Assembly: GCA_937922045.1 (NCBI GenBank)
Contig: CAKZXA010000054.1
Location: 1 to 64,000 of the forward strand
Reading direction: 5' to 3'
DNA from: an uncultured Acidimicrobiales bacterium
GTDB taxonomy: Bacteria > Actinomycetota > Acidimicrobiia > Acidimicrobiales > SZUA-35
Length of the DNA stretch: 64,000 nucleotides
The position numbers and the translations under genes are program-made. The first letter of the stretch is position 1; the number at the start of each line of letters is the position of its first letter. Shown here in pieces: positions 19,594 to 26,918 of the stretch. The notes under the pieces are model-generated. The model was given only the letters and a program-made list of their open reading frames with translations. It was not told the origin of the DNA and did not search any database.

Positions 19594-21053
19594 TCGTTCT
19601 CGGTCTCGATCTCGCCGCTGTCTTCGGCCGCCTCATCGTCGCCGGTAAGCACAGACTCGCGTTCTGACTCGGTTGGTACGGCGGCAATGTCTTCAGCTTC
19701 GAGGGTTGTGAGTTGCGCATCGGAGGGCGCCGCGACTTCGGTCAGGCGTTGAGCGTGGCGAGACACCGCTGCTTCGAAGAGGTTGCGGGCCAACCGGCCG
19801 TTGCCGAACCCGTGACCTCGGTCGTGAGCACCGAACCAGGCGACAGCAGCCGTCGTGGCCTCATCGGTCAGCTCGTAGGTGCCCCCGGTCGAGATCAGCT
19901 TGAGAATCGCTACCAGTTCGTCGTTGTCGTAGTCGGGGAAGTAGATGGTCTTGGGGAAACGGCTGCCGAAGCCAGGGTTGGTGGCAACCAGCTCGGCCAT
20001 CTCTTTGGGGTAGCCGGCAAGAATCACAACCATCGAGTCGCGGCGATCTTCAACGTTCTTGACCACCGAGTCGATCGCTTCACGGCCAAAGTCTTTCTCG
20101 CCGCCACGGGTCAGTGAGTAGGCCTCGTCGATCAGCAGTACGCCGCCGTCGGCCTTGTCGAAGACCTCCTTGACCTTGGTTGCGGTCTGGCCGACGAAGC
20201 CAGCGACGAGCCCACTTCGATCGACCTCGATCAGCTGACCCTTCTGGACAACGCCCAGCGAGCGATAGATTCGGGCCAGTAGCCGCCCTACCGTCGTCTT
20301 GCCGGTGCCGGGGTTGCCGCTAAAGATAAGGTGCTTGGTCGAGTCGACGACGGGCAGATCGCGTTCCTCGCGTAGCTTCTGAACGCGAAGCAGGGCGGTC
20401 AGCAGCCGAACTTCTTCCTTTACCTGCTCGAGACCGATGAGCCCGTCGAGTTCGGCCATCAGATCTTCGAGCGGTTCCGGTGGTTCGAGCGGCGCCTCAG
20501 CTTCGGCCGGAGCCTCGATCCCTTCGGCGGACGTATCGCCGCTCTCGCTGGTTGACGCTACCTTCGAGCCGCCGGTAGGTAGGGCCGCCATCAGGAGTCG
20601 CTGGAACTCGATGATGGCCTTCAACTCGTCGTCTGAGGGGTACTGATCGACGGAGGCCACCGTGTGGGCTAGAGCCATGGCCTCTTCGTAGTACGACCGT
20701 GCAAGCGTCGTGCCGCGAGCTTCGTCGACCTGACGCAGGGTTTCAAACATGTCGGACGGTTTGGACAGCCAGGACCTTTTGCCCTCAAGCAGGTCGTTTC
20801 GCCGCATGGCATCAGGCGTGACCATGCCGGGAAGGAGGTTGTGGTGGGCGAAGGCGGCGACGAGCGCCCAAAGCTCATCGTCGGTATGGCGTCCGTCGAC
20901 ATCGACGAAGGCCACGCTCAGATTGAAGGCTTCGACGAGCACATCACTATCGAGTTTGGCCGCGTCTACCGAGGTCCCGACGGCGGCCTGTTTGACCGCC
21001 CGGCCGATCACCCCGATGAACTTCTCGACCGCTTTGGTTAGTCCTTTGTCCAT
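19590..21053 (-). CDS. CbbX/SpoVK-like AAA+ ATPase
   Basis: The C-terminal half is a CbbX-type AAA+ module with Walker A GNPGTGKT, the pore-loop region LVAGFVGQTATK and Walker B GGVLLIDEAY. It is preceded by an N-terminal helical region of about 200 residues and a Ser/Ala/Pro/Glu-rich linker. The C-terminus is acidic. The start at 21053 (MDKGLTK) is preferred. An in-frame ATG at 21197 would add 48 residues, but it overlaps the divergent moxR start codon, which would leave no room for a promoter. The relatives are motors acting on protein complexes; the client here is unknown. It is coupled to murJ. Confidence 0.8.
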   Translation of the reverse strand: MDKGLTKAVEKFIGVIGRAVKQAAVGTSVDAAKLDSDVLVEAFNLSVAFVDVDGRHTDDELWALVAAFAHHNLLPGMVTPDAMRRNDLLEGKRSWLSKPSDMFETLRQVDEARGTTLARSYYEEAMALAHTVASVDQYPSDDELKAIIEFQRLLMAALPTGGSKVASTSESGDTSAEGIEAPAEAEAPLEPPEPLEDLMAELDGLIGLEQVKEEVRLLTALLRVQKLREERDLPVVDSTKHLIFSGNPGTGKTTVGRLLARIYRSLGVVQKGQLIEVDRSGLVAGFVGQTATKVKEVFDKADGGVLLIDEAYSLTRGGEKDFGREAIDSVVKNVEDRRDSMVVILAGYPKEMAELVATNPGFGSRFPKTIYFPDYDNDELVAILKLISTGGTYELTDEATTAAVAWFGAHDRGHGFGNGRLARNLFEAAVSRHAQRLTEVAAPSDAQLTTLEAEDIAAVPTESERESVLTGDDEAAEDSGEIETENE

Positions 21054-21157: not shown

Positions 21158-21186
21158 TTGACCATCCGGTCAAGTCCTCTTGTACC
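21158..21186 (+). promoter_or_regulatory. Candidate sigma-70-type promoter for moxR
   Basis: TTGACC (21158-21163), a 17-base spacer and TGTACC (21181-21186) lie 9 bases before the moxR ATG. The -35 is good and the -10 weak. The position inside the longest possible reading frame of the divergent AAA+ gene supports the shorter start for that gene. Confidence 0.35.
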
Positions 21187-21195
21187 TTTGTCTGC

Positions 21196-22095
21196 ATGAC
21201 ACATCGTTTTGACTCGGTCGACCAGGTCCGCGACGGACTGCGCAGCGTCGACTATCTAGCCGACGAATCCATCGCCGGCGTCGCCTTCCTCGCTGACCGA
21301 CTTGAAAAGCCGGTCCTCATCGAGGGCCCGGCCGGCACCGGCAAGACTCAGCTCGCCAAGTCCATCGCCGAGATGAGCGGCGCCCGCCTGATCAGGCTGC
21401 AATGCTACGAAGGCCTGGATGAGGCCAAAGCGCTCTACGAGTGGAACTACAAGAAGCAGCTTCTTCGCATCCAGGTGGAAGCGGGAGACGCAGACACTTC
21501 GTGGACAGAGATCCAGGACGACATCTTCTCCGACGAGTTCCTGCTGCCTCGGCCGCTCCTCGAAGCCATCACGGCCGACGACCCGGTTGTGCTTCTCATC
21601 GATGAGGTCGACCGCGTCGAGCTCGAAACCGAAGCGTTACTGTTGGAGATCCTCTCCGACTATCAGGTATCGATTCCCGAGTTGGGCACGATCGAAGCAA
21701 AACAGATCCCACTCGTCTTTCTCACGTCGAACAACACTCGTGAGCTATCTGAGGCTCTCAAACGACGCTGTCTGTTTCTCCACCTGGACTATCCAGATAT
21801 GGAGCGTGAGAAGGAGATCGTCCTCACCAAGGTGCCCGGGATCAGCGAATCGCTCGCTGACCAGGTTTCTCGGATCGTGCGTTCGGTCCGCCAGCTTGAG
21901 CTGAAGAAGCATCCGTCGGTCTCCGAAACGCTCGACTGGGCCCGTACCTTGGTCCTGCTCGGCATCGACCACGTCGAAGAGAAGCAGGCGGTCGACACGG
22001 TCAACATCCTGTTGAAGTATCGCTCCGACATCGAAAAGGCCATCAAGGACTTCACGGCCAATTCGTCTTCCCACTTTGACGCCGCTGCCGGTTAG
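21196..22095 (+). CDS. MoxR-family AAA+ ATPase
   Basis: A 299-residue AAA+ protein with Walker A GPAGTGKTQ, Walker B VVLLIDEVDR and sensor LVFLTSNNTREL, matching the MoxR family. It starts at ATG 21196; upstream codons in the same frame are antisense to the CbbX-like gene and are not counted. MoxR proteins work with VWA-domain partners as metal-insertion or complex-remodelling chaperones, and such a partner follows after 14 bases. Confidence 0.9.
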   Translation: MTHRFDSVDQVRDGLRSVDYLADESIAGVAFLADRLEKPVLIEGPAGTGKTQLAKSIAEMSGARLIRLQCYEGLDEAKALYEWNYKKQLLRIQVEAGDADTSWTEIQDDIFSDEFLLPRPLLEAITADDPVVLLIDEVDRVELETEALLLEILSDYQVSIPELGTIEAKQIPLVFLTSNNTRELSEALKRRCLFLHLDYPDMEREKEIVLTKVPGISESLADQVSRIVRSVRQLELKKHPSVSETLDWARTLVLLGIDHVEEKQAVDTVNILLKYRSDIEKAIKDFTANSSSHFDAAAG

Positions 22096-22109: not shown

Positions 22110-23570
22110 ATGAGCCTGCTTGAAAACCAGAGCCCTCTGTTCCATTTGCTTGAGGGGTTCGTCACCGAGCTTCGCAACGCCGGGTTGCCGGTGTCGTTGT
22201 CGGAGAACATCGACGCAGCCGAAGCGGTCAAACACATCCCTATCGAAGACCGCGTTGCCTTCAAGTACGCTCTGGCCGCCACGCTCGTCAAGAACGACGC
22301 TCACTGGAAGACATTCGAGACCCTCTTTGAGGTCTACTTCTCGTTGCGAGGTCGTGAGTACGCGATCGAGGGCGACGGCAACGACCCCTTCGGCGACATG
22401 GACTTTGACCCTGAGGAGGGCGACCAGCCTCCGGGCCAGGGTGGCCAGGGCGGGGGAGACGGGCTCTCTCCCGAAGAACTGGCTGAGCTGCTCTATCAGG
22501 CTCTGCTCCGCGGCGATGACACGCTGATGCGCGCCATCGCTCGCCAGGCGGTAAAGCGTTTCGCTGGTATGGAGCCTGGCCGGCCGGTGGGTGGAACGTA
22601 CTACCTCTATCGCACCCTTCGGAATCTGGACCTCGATGGCGTGATGGAGCGCTTGATGGAACAGGCCCGAGGCCAGGGCGACAAGCAGATCACCCCGTTT
22701 GAGGAACGACTCGAGCGCGATGAGTATGAATCCCGTGTTGAGAGCCTTCGGCGTGAGATCGAGGCCGAGATCCGGCGTCGACTCGTGGCCGATCGAGGCG
22801 CTGAAGCCATGGCCAAGACCTTGCGCAAGCCGCTGCCAGAAGACGTCGACTTCATGCACGCCAGCCGCGATGAGATGGTCATGCTGCGGAGGGCCATCTA
22901 CCCGCTAACTCGGAAACTCGCGGTGCGTCTAGCCCGCAAACGTCGCCACAAGCGCAAAGGGAAGCTGGATTTTCGTTCCACGGTGCGGCACTCGCTGAGC
23001 TATGGCGGCGTGCCCGCCGACCCGAAATTCCGTCACCCGAAGCCAGCGAAACCAGAAATCTTCGTGATCGCGGACATCTCGGGCTCGGTGGCCGCCTTCG
23101 CCCGCTTCACCTTGCATCTGGTGTACGCCATCTCAAGCCAATTCAGCCGGGTCAGGGCCTTCGTGTTCATCGATGGCCTCGACGAGGTCACCCCCTTTTT
23201 CGAAGGCGTTGATGACATCACCGAAGCGATCCACCGGGTCAATACCGAGGCTGATGTTGTCTGGGTTGATGGCCACTCCGACTACGGACATGCGCTCGAG
23301 GTGTTCTGGGACCAGTACGGCAAAGAGGTCGGCCCCAAGACCACCGTGTTGATTCTCGGCGACGCTCGCAATAACTATCACGCCTCGCAGGCATGGATCA
23401 CCAAGGAGATCCAGCATCGCGCTCGTAAGCTGTTCTGGCTCAACCCAGAGCCGAAGGCCTACTGGAATACGGGCGACTCGATCGTCGGGGAGTATGGCGA
23501 CCACTGCGATGGTGTCTTCGAAGTGCGAAACCTGCGGCAGCTGGAACGATTCGTCGACAACCTGGTCTAG
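22110..23570 (+). CDS. VWA (CoxE-like) domain protein, MoxR partner
   Basis: A 486-residue protein. The N-terminal region has an acidic Gly-rich linker (about residues 90-120). The C-terminal VWA fold carries the MIDAS motif DISGS with a later conserved Asp in VWVDGHSDYGHAL. The pattern is that of CoxE-like proteins encoded next to MoxR in CO-dehydrogenase and other operons. No metalloenzyme structural genes are adjacent, so the client is unknown. Confidence 0.87.
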   Translation: MSLLENQSPLFHLLEGFVTELRNAGLPVSLSENIDAAEAVKHIPIEDRVAFKYALAATLVKNDAHWKTFETLFEVYFSLRGREYAIEGDGNDPFGDMDFDPEEGDQPPGQGGQGGGDGLSPEELAELLYQALLRGDDTLMRAIARQAVKRFAGMEPGRPVGGTYYLYRTLRNLDLDGVMERLMEQARGQGDKQITPFEERLERDEYESRVESLRREIEAEIRRRLVADRGAEAMAKTLRKPLPEDVDFMHASRDEMVMLRRAIYPLTRKLAVRLARKRRHKRKGKLDFRSTVRHSLSYGGVPADPKFRHPKPAKPEIFVIADISGSVAAFARFTLHLVYAISSQFSRVRAFVFIDGLDEVTPFFEGVDDITEAIHRVNTEADVVWVDGHSDYGHALEVFWDQYGKEVGPKTTVLILGDARNNYHASQAWITKEIQHRARKLFWLNPEPKAYWNTGDSIVGEYGDHCDGVFEVRNLRQLERFVDNLV

Positions 23571-23708
23571 TTCGTTCCTGGCGTTGATTGTCGCTGCGCC
23601 TGCTGTGGCCTGGGCAAATCTTCGAACCGTGCGCATCGCTGGGATCTGCGGCTTGGTATCTGGGTCGAATACTAGCCAGGGTGATGCAAGCGAGCTTATG
23701 ATCAAGGC

Positions 23709-24575
23709 GTGGTCGTAACGCTCGAAGACCGATTGGTAGTTGGAGACGGTTCCGCTCTGCGCGACCTCTTTGACCAATACGCACCCCTGGTCGCAGGTAT
23801 CGGGCGAGGCGTCTTCGGCGCCGACGACGAGTCCGCGAGCAGAGCCATGACCGCGGATGTCATCGCCGAGGCTTGGAACACGCGAACCGACTTCGACCCC
23901 TCGAAGGGGTCGGTGTTGGCGTGGATCGTTTCAATAACCCGAGAGCGTCTTCAATCGTCGTTGACGGCGCTGGGACGGGGAGACGAAGATCATGATCAGC
24001 TCGTCGACCGGTCCTTGATCGGAGCGGTGATGGCCGCCATGCCGGATAGCCGATCGCAGATTCTCGAACGCGGCCTTTTCGATGAGGAAGGCGAAGAAGC
24101 GATCGCCTCACAGCTCGATGTGCCCGTCGGGTCGGTCGCAGGACATCTGCGGGTGGGTCTAGAGAATCTTCGTGATGAACTGAGCGATAGTCTCCCCGAT
24201 GACGTTGATGTTATGGAGCGCCTGCAGAACGCCGTTTCCGGCGGTCGCAGTGGTAGCACCGCACAGCCCGTCTCTTCGGAGGTGTGGGACGATGTGGTTG
24301 CCCGCGCCGACCTGGAAGACGATCAGCTCGTTGAGGTCAGCCACGAAGACGCCACGATCCTTGCTCCCGATGTCGTCGAGAATAAGACCGACATGACAGG
24401 GATCGACGCGCTTCAGCAGGCCGCTGCCGACCCAGATCCCGTCGCAGGTGGCTACGACACGACGGGTTCACGCCTCCCAGACTCGACAAACAGTTCACCC
24501 GGTAAGCGAATGCTGTTGATCGGCCTAGTCGCTGTAGCGGTGATCCTGGGCATCGTGCTCGCAGCGGTTCTCTAG
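23709..24575 (+). CDS. ECF-sigma-like protein with C-terminal membrane anchor
   Basis: A 288-residue protein starting at GTG 23709. Residues 1-160 follow a sigma-70 region 2 to region 4 pattern: LRDLFDQYAPLVAGIGRGVF, then TADVIAEAWNTRTDFDP and GSVLAWIVSITRERLQS, then EEGEEAIASQLDVPVGSVAG as the region 4 helix-turn-helix. A variable acidic linker (170-260) leads to a single C-terminal membrane helix (MLLIGLVAVAVILGIVLAAV). The result looks like a sigma factor fused to a tail anchor. The region 2 core is weakly conserved. It may be an ECF sigma with a built-in anchor, or a zinc-free anti-sigma hybrid. Confidence 0.65.
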   Translation: MVVTLEDRLVVGDGSALRDLFDQYAPLVAGIGRGVFGADDESASRAMTADVIAEAWNTRTDFDPSKGSVLAWIVSITRERLQSSLTALGRGDEDHDQLVDRSLIGAVMAAMPDSRSQILERGLFDEEGEEAIASQLDVPVGSVAGHLRVGLENLRDELSDSLPDDVDVMERLQNAVSGGRSGSTAQPVSSEVWDDVVARADLEDDQLVEVSHEDATILAPDVVENKTDMTGIDALQQAAADPDPVAGGYDTTGSRLPDSTNSSPGKRMLLIGLVAVAVILGIVLAAVL

Positions 24576-24635: not shown

Positions 24636-25970
24636 CTAGTGATCGAGTAGCTCGGCGACCTGGAAGGCCAAATCAAGCGCCTGACGGCCATTGAGCCGTG
24701 GATCGCACATCGTTTCGTAGCGTTTCCCGAGATCGGCCGTCTGCACCGCCTCGCCGCCGCCTAGACATTCGGTGACGTCATCCCCGGTCAGCTCGATGTG
24801 AATGCCGCCAGGCCATGTGCCGGCGGTGCGGTGGGCAGCGAAGAACCCAGCGACCTCGGTCATCACATCGTCGAAGTGACGCGTCTTGTGCCCCGACTCG
24901 GACGTGAAGGTGTTGCCGTGCATGGGATCGCAGGCCCAGACGACGGGGTGACCGCTGTCTTTAACCGCTTCGAGCAGAGGCGGCAGCTTCTCTTCGACCG
25001 TGGTGGCACCCATCCGAGTGATGAAGGTGAGACGCCCCGGCGTGCGGTCAGGGTTCAAGGCTTCGCACAGGCCGAGCACCTCGTCGGTGGTGGCGGTTGG
25101 GCCGATTTTGCAGCCGATCGGGTTCTTGACCCCACGCATGAATTCGATGTGAGCGCCGTCGAGCTGTCGAGTGCGTTCGCCGATCCAGACCATGTGGGCG
25201 GAACAGTCGTACCAATCGTCGGTCAGCGAATCCTGTCGAGTGAGCGCTTCTTCATATTGCAAGATGAGAGCCTCGTGGCTGGTGAAGAAGTCTGCCTCAT
25301 GGATCTCGCTGTGATTCGACGAGAGACCGGTTGCTTCCATGAAGCGCAATGCTCGATCGATCTCTGTCGCAAGATGTTCGTAGCGTTTTCCTTCCGGAGA
25401 AGCAGCGACGAACTCCTGGTTCCATGCCTGGACGCGATGCAGATCGGCAAACCCGCCGCGGGTGAAAGCCCGTAGCAGGTTGAGCGTGGAGGCCGACTGG
25501 TTGTAGGCCTGAAGCAGCCGTTCTGGTCTTGGCCGCCGGTCGCCCTCGGAGAAGGGGAGGTCGTTGACCATGTGGCCGAGAAACGAGGGAAGCTCGGTGC
25601 CGTCGACGGTCTCGGTTGGACTTGATCGTGGCTTCGCAAACTGGCCAGCAATACGCCCAACCTTGACGGCGGGAACGCCGGATGAGTAGGTGAGCACAAC
25701 CGCCATCTGAAGGATGACGCGAAGTTTCTCCCTGATGGCGTTGGCATCGAACCCATCAAAAGACTCGGCGCAGTCGCCAGCTTGGAGGAGAAAGGCCTTG
25801 CCATCGCAGACCTCGGCCAGCCTATCGGTAAGGTTTCGTGCCTCGCCGGCGAAGACGAGCGGGGGATAGGAGGCAAGCTCCTGCTCCACTTGCTCGAGCT
25901 CGGCAGCATCAGGCCACTCGGGCTGATGGGCTGCGGGGAGCTGTCTCCAGGTTCCAGGGTTCCATGTCAC
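24636..25970 (-). CDS. aroG: Class II 3-deoxy-7-phosphoheptulonate synthase
   Basis: A 444-residue first enzyme of the shikimate pathway, condensing phosphoenolpyruvate and erythrose-4-phosphate. The plant-type (class II) signature is clear: VFAGEARNL, LLQAGDCAESF, KVGRIAGQFAKPRSSP, and the metal-binding WACDPMHGNT. The ATG start at 25970 gives the normal N-terminus. It is transcribed in the same direction as the upstream sigma factor gene but separated from it by a strong terminator. Confidence 0.96.
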   Translation of the reverse strand: MTWNPGTWRQLPAAHQPEWPDAAELEQVEQELASYPPLVFAGEARNLTDRLAEVCDGKAFLLQAGDCAESFDGFDANAIREKLRVILQMAVVLTYSSGVPAVKVGRIAGQFAKPRSSPTETVDGTELPSFLGHMVNDLPFSEGDRRPRPERLLQAYNQSASTLNLLRAFTRGGFADLHRVQAWNQEFVAASPEGKRYEHLATEIDRALRFMEATGLSSNHSEIHEADFFTSHEALILQYEEALTRQDSLTDDWYDCSAHMVWIGERTRQLDGAHIEFMRGVKNPIGCKIGPTATTDEVLGLCEALNPDRTPGRLTFITRMGATTVEEKLPPLLEAVKDSGHPVVWACDPMHGNTFTSESGHKTRHFDDVMTEVAGFFAAHRTAGTWPGGIHIELTGDDVTECLGGGEAVQTADLGKRYETMCDPRLNGRQALDLAFQVAELLDH

Positions 25971-26078: not shown

Positions 26079-26918
26079 TTAGGCAGCGTCGAAGTCGCTT
26101 ATGACATCGCCAGCCTGATCGCGTACGGCGCTAACCGCTCGCTTGACCAGGCGTCGGGCCGCCTCGGCGGTAACGCCGAGTTCTTCGCCGACCTCGCGGT
26201 AGCTGCGCTTGCGGCCATCGTTGAGGCCGAATCGCTGCTCTACTGCGTACTTGGCCCGGGGGTCGAGGACCTCCAGGAGGCCGGTGACCATGGTCTCCTC
26301 AGCCTTGGCCATTACTTCGTATTCCGGCCCCGGTGTTGAGTCGGGGAGGAGGTCTACCAGCTCGTTCGAATCATCGTCACCGATGGTCCGGTCGAGGGAG
26401 GTTGGGGTTGTTAGTCGATGGAGGCGTGCGTGCTCGTCGTCCAATTCGTCGCCGTCGCCGGAAACCTGGCGAAGTGCGGCTCGGAGGCTTGCTGAGCGGT
26501 CGCCGGGGAGGCGTACGAGACTGGCTTTCTGGTCGAGAGCTCGACCGATCGCCTGACGAATCCAAAACGTTGCATAGGTGGAGAACTTGAATCCTTTGCG
26601 CCAGTCGAACTTGTCGACTGCGTGCTCAAGGCCCAGGTTCCCTTCTTGAATCAGGTCGAGCAACTCCATGGAAGGAGGGAGTGGATAACGACGGGCAACG
26701 CTGACCACCAAGCGGAGGTTAGCGCGGATGAATCGATCCTTAGCCCGTGCTGCGTTTCGCACTGCTCGTCGGTTTGCCGCCGAATTCTCACCAGCATCGA
26801 TGGATTCCTGGGCCTCTCGGCCCTTCTCGATAATTTGGCTCAGCTCACGCTCTTCGTCCGCCGTTAGGAGGGGAACAAGGCCGATCTCGTTTAGATATTG
26901 TCCTACTGAATCACTCAT
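26079..26918 (-). CDS. RpoD/SigA-family RNA polymerase sigma factor
   Basis: A 279-residue sigma-70 protein. Region 1.2 is DSVGQYLNEIGLVPLLTADEE, region 2 contains RFIRANLRLVVSVARRY and LLDLIQEGNLGL with KFSTYATFWIRQAIGRAL, and region 4 ends in VEQRFGLNDGRKRSYREVGE with a helix-turn-helix. There is no region 1.1, and region 3 is short. It is a group 2 (SigB/HrdB-like) sigma factor rather than the housekeeping one. The 207-base upstream gap is shared with divergent nadD and contains a small hairpin (GGCAGG…CCTGCC) in the probable leader. Confidence 0.9.
   Translation of the reverse strand: MSDSVGQYLNEIGLVPLLTADEERELSQIIEKGREAQESIDAGENSAANRRAVRNAARAKDRFIRANLRLVVSVARRYPLPPSMELLDLIQEGNLGLEHAVDKFDWRKGFKFSTYATFWIRQAIGRALDQKASLVRLPGDRSASLRAALRQVSGDGDELDDEHARLHRLTTPTSLDRTIGDDDSNELVDLLPDSTPGPEYEVMAKAEETMVTGLLEVLDPRAKYAVEQRFGLNDGRKRSYREVGEELGVTAEAARRLVKRAVSAVRDQAGDVISDFDAA

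Follow-up and report, generated by a model that had tools for sequence, protein, structure and literature searches.

In one genus of the Acidimicrobiales, seven genomes have a single open reading frame that combines a SigK-like ECF sigma with an RskA-like anti-sigma and from which the outer RskA_C sensor domain is gone. We propose, with a probability of roughly 0.7, that this fused pair has been put to new use as a tail-anchored, promoter-blind regulator acting through protein binding. The copy described here lies at positions 23,709 to 24,575 (+) of the window, i.e. the whole stretch of 64,000 nucleotides that was analysed, which belongs to a genome of 4.88 Mb (96.9% complete).

Layout and origin of the fused gene

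The fused sigma/anti-sigma gene (23709-24575, +), identified from its ORF, Pfam matches, synteny and a structural model, is a single ORF that begins with GTG and encodes 288 aa. Pfam matched sigma families only and no response-regulator receiver domain: Sigma70_r2 was found on residues 20-88 (25.2 bits, cut-off 24, E 1.5e-5), Sigma70_r4_2 reached only 14.7 bits (cut-off 25.7, E 0.024), and RskA_C (PF10099) gave no Pfam match in the protein. The best NCBIfam match was SigK (E 4e-14, 52.6 bits, cut-off 226). An AlphaFold2 model built with 14 aligned sequences has a mean pLDDT of 81.3 (84-96 per 10-residue block in the sigma part), with good confidence for residues 1-203 and the C-terminal helix 265-287 and poor confidence for the linker. 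It matched region 2 of sigma-E (4lup; Z 11.1, 86 residues, 2.1 A) and region 4 of sigma-E (2h27; Z 10.6, 71 residues, 2.3 A), so that the model supports the presence of both folds. The sigma region 2/4-like sequence noticed by the first-pass annotation, which had suggested structure prediction as a check, is thereby confirmed, with Pfam region 2 above its cut-off.

Along the chain, the sigma-2 domain (residues 1-90; 23709-23978, +; Pfam region 2, alignment, residue table, model) has kept its core, while its region 2.2 motif and region 2.4 recognition residues are replaced and four residues are inserted near region 2.2. The sigma-4 domain (residues 93-161; 23985-24191, +; Pfam, model, residue table) retains the helix-turn-helix fold but has Ala in place of the invariant Lys of the recognition helix. 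It is followed by a putative remnant of the cytoplasmic part of an anti-sigma factor with an invariant Trp193 (residues 164-203; 24198-24317, +; hhalign, AlphaFold2 helices), by an acidic linker of low confidence (residues 204-264; 24318-24500, +; pLDDT mostly <55, composition) and by a C-terminal transmembrane helix (residues 265-288; 24501-24572, +; hydrophobicity, model). Residues 200-264 hold 15 acidic and 2 basic residues among 65, and the single strongly hydrophobic C-terminal helix spans 269-287 (Kyte-Doolittle 3.15), modelled as helix 265-287 at a pLDDT of ~89; an acidic linker and a terminal membrane helix had both been described correctly before. The chain terminates at the membrane helix, and no outer part is left.

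The gene sits in a conserved neighbourhood, which was compared across 23 genomes of the family, window included. The gene order is CbbX-like AAA (-), MoxR (+), VWA/CoxE-like (+), sigma (+), class II DAHP synthase (-), SigB-like (-) and nadD (+), where CbbX, DAHP synthase and nadD are names presumed from sequence family. The MoxR-VWA-sigma-DAHP order is complete in 19/23 genomes, and contig ends interrupt it in three (G001, G007, G028). Named records among the syntenic loci are mostly uncultured Acidimicrobiales, and 14 of 36 fetched regions were left out of the syntenic loci as they had no MoxR/VWA/DAHP flank. In the window the MoxR-like AAA+ ATPase (MadB-like; 21196-22095, +; profile matches, synteny) probably starts at 21196 and not at 20749. 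Its VWA/CoxE-like partner (22110-23570, +; PF05762 145.7 bits, synteny) ends 138 bases before the fused gene, the distance that had already been noted. Downstream, on the opposite strand and with no separate adjoining anti-sigma gene, follows the flank marker of the slot, presumably a class II DAHP synthase gene (24636-25970, -; placed by synteny). The next gene, for a SigB-like group 2 sigma factor with region 1.2 (26079-26918, -), shows ~90-97% identity across the syntenic loci of the family, more than the adjoining genes, and its product is possibly a general regulator. The sole synteny break seen in the genus is in G030 (L040), where an ordinary sigma/anti-sigma pair lies ~3.5 kb from the DAHP synthase gene and no VWA gene was found within the 11 kb examined.

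In 16/23 genomes the slot between the VWA and DAHP synthase genes is occupied by two overlapping genes, for a SigK-like ECF sigma and an RskA-like anti-sigma factor. The ordinary sigma gene has 168-177 codons from the aligned start (14 complete copies); the anti-sigma gene has 196-258 codons, encodes one membrane helix and overlaps the sigma gene in 16/16. At the one locus tested, the anti-sigma factor matched RskA_C (38.1 bits, cut-off 29.4) and the sigma factor matched Pfam region 2 (73.2 bits) and region 4 (52.1 bits). In 14/16 two-gene loci the start of the anti-sigma gene is offset from the sigma reading frame in the same way; because the parent genes overlap in different frames, a single frameshift could join them. 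The first-pass annotation had stated that there is no separate anti-sigma gene, which is correct for the window locus, but the reason is that this gene has been fused on, and all 16 two-gene relatives have it as an overlapping gene at this place.

That an anti-sigma-like part and a membrane helix follow in the same chain is supported by the position of the parent anti-sigma gene, by the family profile match and by hydrophobicity and model. In alignments the remnant pairs with the cytoplasmic N-terminal region of the relatives' anti-sigma gene, and profile-profile comparison of the seven-member family with the parent anti-sigma (hhalign) gave 95.2% at E 2.9e-8. As single sequences, the remnants of G028 and G029 scored 36.1 and 30.3 bits (shuffle maxima 6.9 and 6.5), whereas four other fused copies scored 4.6-8.3 bits, with only G032 (8.3 vs 6.8) exceeding its shuffle maximum, and the window remnant scored 2.5 bits, which is not significant as shuffles reach 4.9. 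The model places helices at residues 168-177 and 190-199 of the window remnant. The Trp is present in 7/7 fused copies, and the matching parent residue is Trp in 14/16 and Phe in 2/16. In a co-evolution study (PMC7406223), the fourth helix of such anti-sigma factors, aromatic in some groups, is placed on sigma regions 2.1-2.2, i.e. the polymerase-clamp face, and the remnant may well be that helix. The acidic linkers of the fused copies are 23-38% acidic across the counted stretches and are followed by the membrane helix.

One ORF instead of two genes was found in the window genome (G000) and, when the same fusion was searched for in relatives, in six further genomes of the same genus (G024, G025, G028, G029, G031, G032). 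The ORFs are open across 266-462 codons in 7/7 (a contig end cuts G028 before the membrane helix). In a tree of six flanking proteins all seven copies fall on one side of a branch with support 80/83, and the window copy branches first among them. Only these seven among 39 family genomes gave matches of the fused-family profile past the sigma part. Across 298 genomes of the order, with up to five candidates scored per genome and among the matches listed, no fused-profile match outside G000 reaches past position 171 of 425. Inspection of the 23 best loci (L162-L184, of which two belong to the same family) for independent fusions showed that the ORF ends no more than 30 residues from the sigma-4 motif. 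The fusion most likely happened once, at the base of the seven-genome clade. Two separate fusions inside the genus, one for the window copy and one for the other six, are a lesser possibility that stands because the joining branch has a support of only 80/83, which is moderate.

Losses in the sigma part, selection and start element

Seven fused copies were compared residue by residue with 28 working sigma factors (14 local, 7 C4-type as described below, 7 others); G026 (N run inside the sigma gene) and G007 (contig end) were omitted from this table and from alignment A1. We take the region 2.4 residues to recognise the -10 element, the region 2.2 D..Q motif to bind the clamp, and the sigma-4 Lys to belong to the -35 helix. 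These labels are backed in part by PMC7406223, as far as its accessible text goes. The four region 2.4 positions D79, R82, R86 and R87 are 93-100% conserved in the working sigmas, and the fused copies retain 1/28 cells: in the window D79 and R82 are replaced, R87 is absent and R86 aligns to an Arg. The region 2.2 Asp (D42) is kept in 0/7 and the region 2.2 Gln in 2/7 fused copies, and the recognition-helix Lys (K154) in 0/7, with Glu in its place in three. In working sigmas the Trp of region 2.3 and the Asp of region 4.1 lie 40-48 residues apart, as against 28 in the window copy and 20-21 in the other six, so the sigma-2/sigma-4 linker is shorter by 12-28 residues; because a sigma factor must span from clamp to flap, such a linker should not serve sigma function. 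The core Phe, Trp and Gly of regions 2.2-2.3 are retained, as are 54/98 conserved cells of the region-4 helix-turn-helix, and Pfam region 4 stays below its cut-off in 7/7. From these sequences we infer that the fused sigma part can no longer read promoters and lacks part of the motif that docks to RNA polymerase. Degeneration has gone least far in the window copy, which clears the Pfam region-2 cut-off and whose model retains a region-2.4-like helix.

The fused protein is nonetheless under purifying selection and not decaying, as measured in relatives of the window copy (the window sequence itself being too diverged). The dN/dS of sigma-2 was 0.029 (G031-G032), 0.041 (G031-G024) and 0.098 (G029-G028), and that of sigma-4 was 0.040, 0.063 and 0.073 in three relative pairs, sigma-2 being at least as constrained as sigma-4 in 2/3. 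For comparison, two pairs of working sigmas gave 0.076-0.161 and VWA gave 0.019-0.031. Values were higher in the anti-sigma remnant (0.199 and 0.28 in two pairs, synonymous sites saturated in the third) and in the acidic linker (~0.2, one pair saturated).

Six nucleotides upstream of the GTG start lies the sequence TATGAT (23697-23702, +), which resembles a -10 element of the form TANNNT. A TANNNT 5-7 nt upstream of the start is kept in 22/22 loci, which supports the GTG start, and at spacing 6-7 was found for 57/10028 random RTG codons; no -35 motif was established for this element. The pattern suggests that the fused gene is transcribed as a leaderless mRNA from its own promoter. Upstream of the ordinary sigma ORFs a conserved 'YPR'-like peptide in the same frame could be taken for an N-terminal extension, but the DNA fits a -10-like element and a leaderless start better. 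When a promoter shared by the C4-type and fused genes was looked for, the pattern used had no match upstream of any of the seven C4-type genes. The MoxR-VWA neighbourhood, from which a regulatory link had been suggested, is real and conserved, but as the sigma gene has a conserved promoter-like element of its own, co-transcription with MoxR-VWA is not needed.

The moxR gene also appears to have a leaderless promoter (TACCTT near 21183-21188, ATG at 21196). At its likely -35 position lies a palindrome, TTGACC-NNNN-GGTCAA (21158-21173), that is perfect in G000, G014, G015, G027, G033 and G038 and partial in G026 and G034; it looks like a repressor site.

A second SigK-RskA-like pair and the possible role of the fused protein

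The sole RskA_C gene of the window genome lies on another contig (C4, ~144320-145102), adjoining an intact SigK-like sigma gene (P0002). The other six fused genomes, and only these, have intact homologues of P0002 with 60-64% identity (219-229 bits); all other hits in the 39 family genomes are at <=168 bits, many of the best ones being the local ordinary sigmas. The seven C4-type sigmas form their own clade (support 97/93), so that a recent duplication of the local sigma is not supported. An RskA-like partner lies directly beside the C4-type sigma in G000, G025 and G032; in G029 and G031 a matching gene lies on a different contig, and the contigs of G024 and G028 end there. At this identity the pair was found in 0/5 same-genus genomes that carry the ordinary two-gene pair. 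Fusion and second pair thus co-occur (7/7 vs 0/5), which counts as one coincidence and not as seven because all cases are on one branch; the co-occurrence would make sense if the second pair had freed the first from its old duty. In L205 (2321-3103, contig C4) and L223 the C4-type pair stands beside a divergent gene for a secreted-protein-like product, which could be a target of the pair; in L223 this product, we presume, resembles a DUF4397 protein.

The following course of events would account for these findings. One frameshift would have joined the overlapping sigma and anti-sigma genes, the RskA_C sensor domain would have been lost while the anti-sigma helix with its Trp and the membrane helix stayed, and the duty of the old pair would have passed to the second, intact SigK-RskA-like pair. 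In the present-day protein the sigma-2/sigma-4 body would be cytoplasmic, the anti-sigma helix of the same chain packing against it. The AlphaFold2 placement of sigma-2 and sigma-4 had been considered as a sign of such a closed state, since it lies within 2.7-3.1 A of SigW-RsiW, SigG1 and CnrH-CnrY and at 25-27 A from several polymerase-bound sigmas; the ordinary sigma L075, modelled as a control with the same alignment rows, adopts the same arrangement (3.1-3.4 A to the same entries), and this argument was dropped. The body would then bind another protein, for which the second RskA-like anti-sigma is the best-motivated candidate, in the manner of PhyR mimicry. Our tentative suggestion is that a membrane-anchored sigma mimic competes for this anti-sigma factor and sets the threshold of the second pair from the membrane. 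According to the accessible parts of PMC7509140, the N-terminal part of RskA alone can inhibit SigK, and RskA variants can also activate it; a protein that carries or binds the helix could therefore tune the pair in either direction. Overall confidence is kept down because the control matches the closed model, Pfam calls region 2 and the window remnant is weak.

Other roles have to be weighed against a promoter-blind, protein-binding regulator. The protein could be a membrane-bound adaptor or client of the MoxR-VWA chaperone pair, with the sigma fold as a docking surface, a role that is compatible with our main reading. The MoxR-VWA genes are present both beside the two separate genes and beside the fusion, and the MoxR-VWA pair RavA-ViaA is described as associating with complexes of respiratory enzymes (PMC10585395, PMC3893208). 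Yet the fused gene has its own conserved promoter-like element, the ordinary pair shares the same neighbours, so that proximity is not specific to the fused form, and in G030, where 11 kb were examined, the sigma pair stands without a VWA gene; we regard this role as doubtful. The main rival, proteolytic release of a membrane-tethered sigma factor that would then initiate transcription, is unlikely, even if the order of sigma, anti-sigma-like part and membrane helix is that of IutY and ECF48/52/53 (PMC8999054, as far as accessible), the window copy clears the Pfam region-2 cut-off and the region-4 helix-turn-helix is partly retained (54/98 cells). The freed product would have lost its promoter-reading residues (region 2.4 at 1/28 cells, recognition-helix Lys at 0/7), which makes its release as an active sigma less likely than the main reading. 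The clamp Asp is kept in 0/7, the sigma-2/4 linker is shorter by 12-28 residues, and there is no outer domain for signal reception. For the same reasons (region 2.4, linker, absent sensor domain) the first-pass proposal that the anchor holds the factor at the membrane until release is not supported.

DNA binding through the sigma-4 helix-turn-helix alone, by a regulator held at the membrane, appears very improbable: the fold is retained (2h27, Z 10.6) under a sigma-4 dN/dS of 0.04-0.07, but the recognition-helix Lys is lost in 7/7 and replaced by Glu in three, Pfam region 4 is below cut-off in 7/7, and sigma-2 is at least equally constrained in 2/3 pairs. Finally, a decaying pseudogene relic of the old sigma pair would be expected to have lost key residues and the sensor domain, as seen here, and this explanation could hardly be reconciled with ORFs that are open in 7/7 (266-462 codons, G028 contig-cut), a sigma-2 dN/dS of 0.03-0.10, similar to or below that of working sigmas, and a conserved start element.

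Known systems and implications

The direct ancestor, by position and sequence, is the SigK-RskA pair (ECF18/19-like sigma, RskA_C anti-sigma); here there is one protein instead of two, RskA_C is missing and the sigma has lost its promoter-reading residues. Sigma factor, anti-sigma-like part and membrane helix are likewise one chain in IutY (ECF243) and in ECF48/52/53, according to the accessible text of PMC8999054 and PMC5826349; as described there, IutY and SCO4117 have a role in transcription, with proteolysis as the activating step for IutY, and for ECF48/52/53 release by proteolysis is proposed (PMC8999054). ECF52, as far as described there, has a zinc finger and outer domains, whereas the window family has neither an outer domain nor promoter-reading residues. 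In the accessible parts of PMC7509140, a truncated RskA accompanies SigK in Nocardia, which is likewise a lineage-specific loss of the sensing part, but there the sigma factor stays separate and is highly active, whereas in the window family it is fused.

For a sigma fold that serves protein binding there is a precedent in PhyR of Alphaproteobacteria, a sigma-like anti-anti-sigma factor (PMC8103513, as far as accessible). PhyR (9by5) superimposes on the window model with Z 8.2 and 3.4 A over 116 residues. PhyR, however, is a response regulator, whereas the window protein lacks a receiver domain and has a membrane anchor and an internal anti-sigma helix; the likeness lies in fold and precedent, and anti-sigma binding by the window protein is a candidate function.

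A literature search that covered mainly sources other than subscription journals recognised no description of such a fused sigma factor lacking region 2.4. Sigma/anti-sigma fusions as such are known from IutY and ECF48/52/53; what is new is a conserved fusion that is promoter-blind and has no sensor. It provides a stepwise case at one locus, where the two-gene arrangement, the clade of fused copies and, in the window, a less degenerate copy that branched early have all survived. That a sigma domain without promoter-reading residues is under strong selection suggests that protein binding can be reason enough to keep a sigma fold, and region 2.4 should therefore be checked before membrane-anchored 'sigma factor' annotations are counted as transcription factors.
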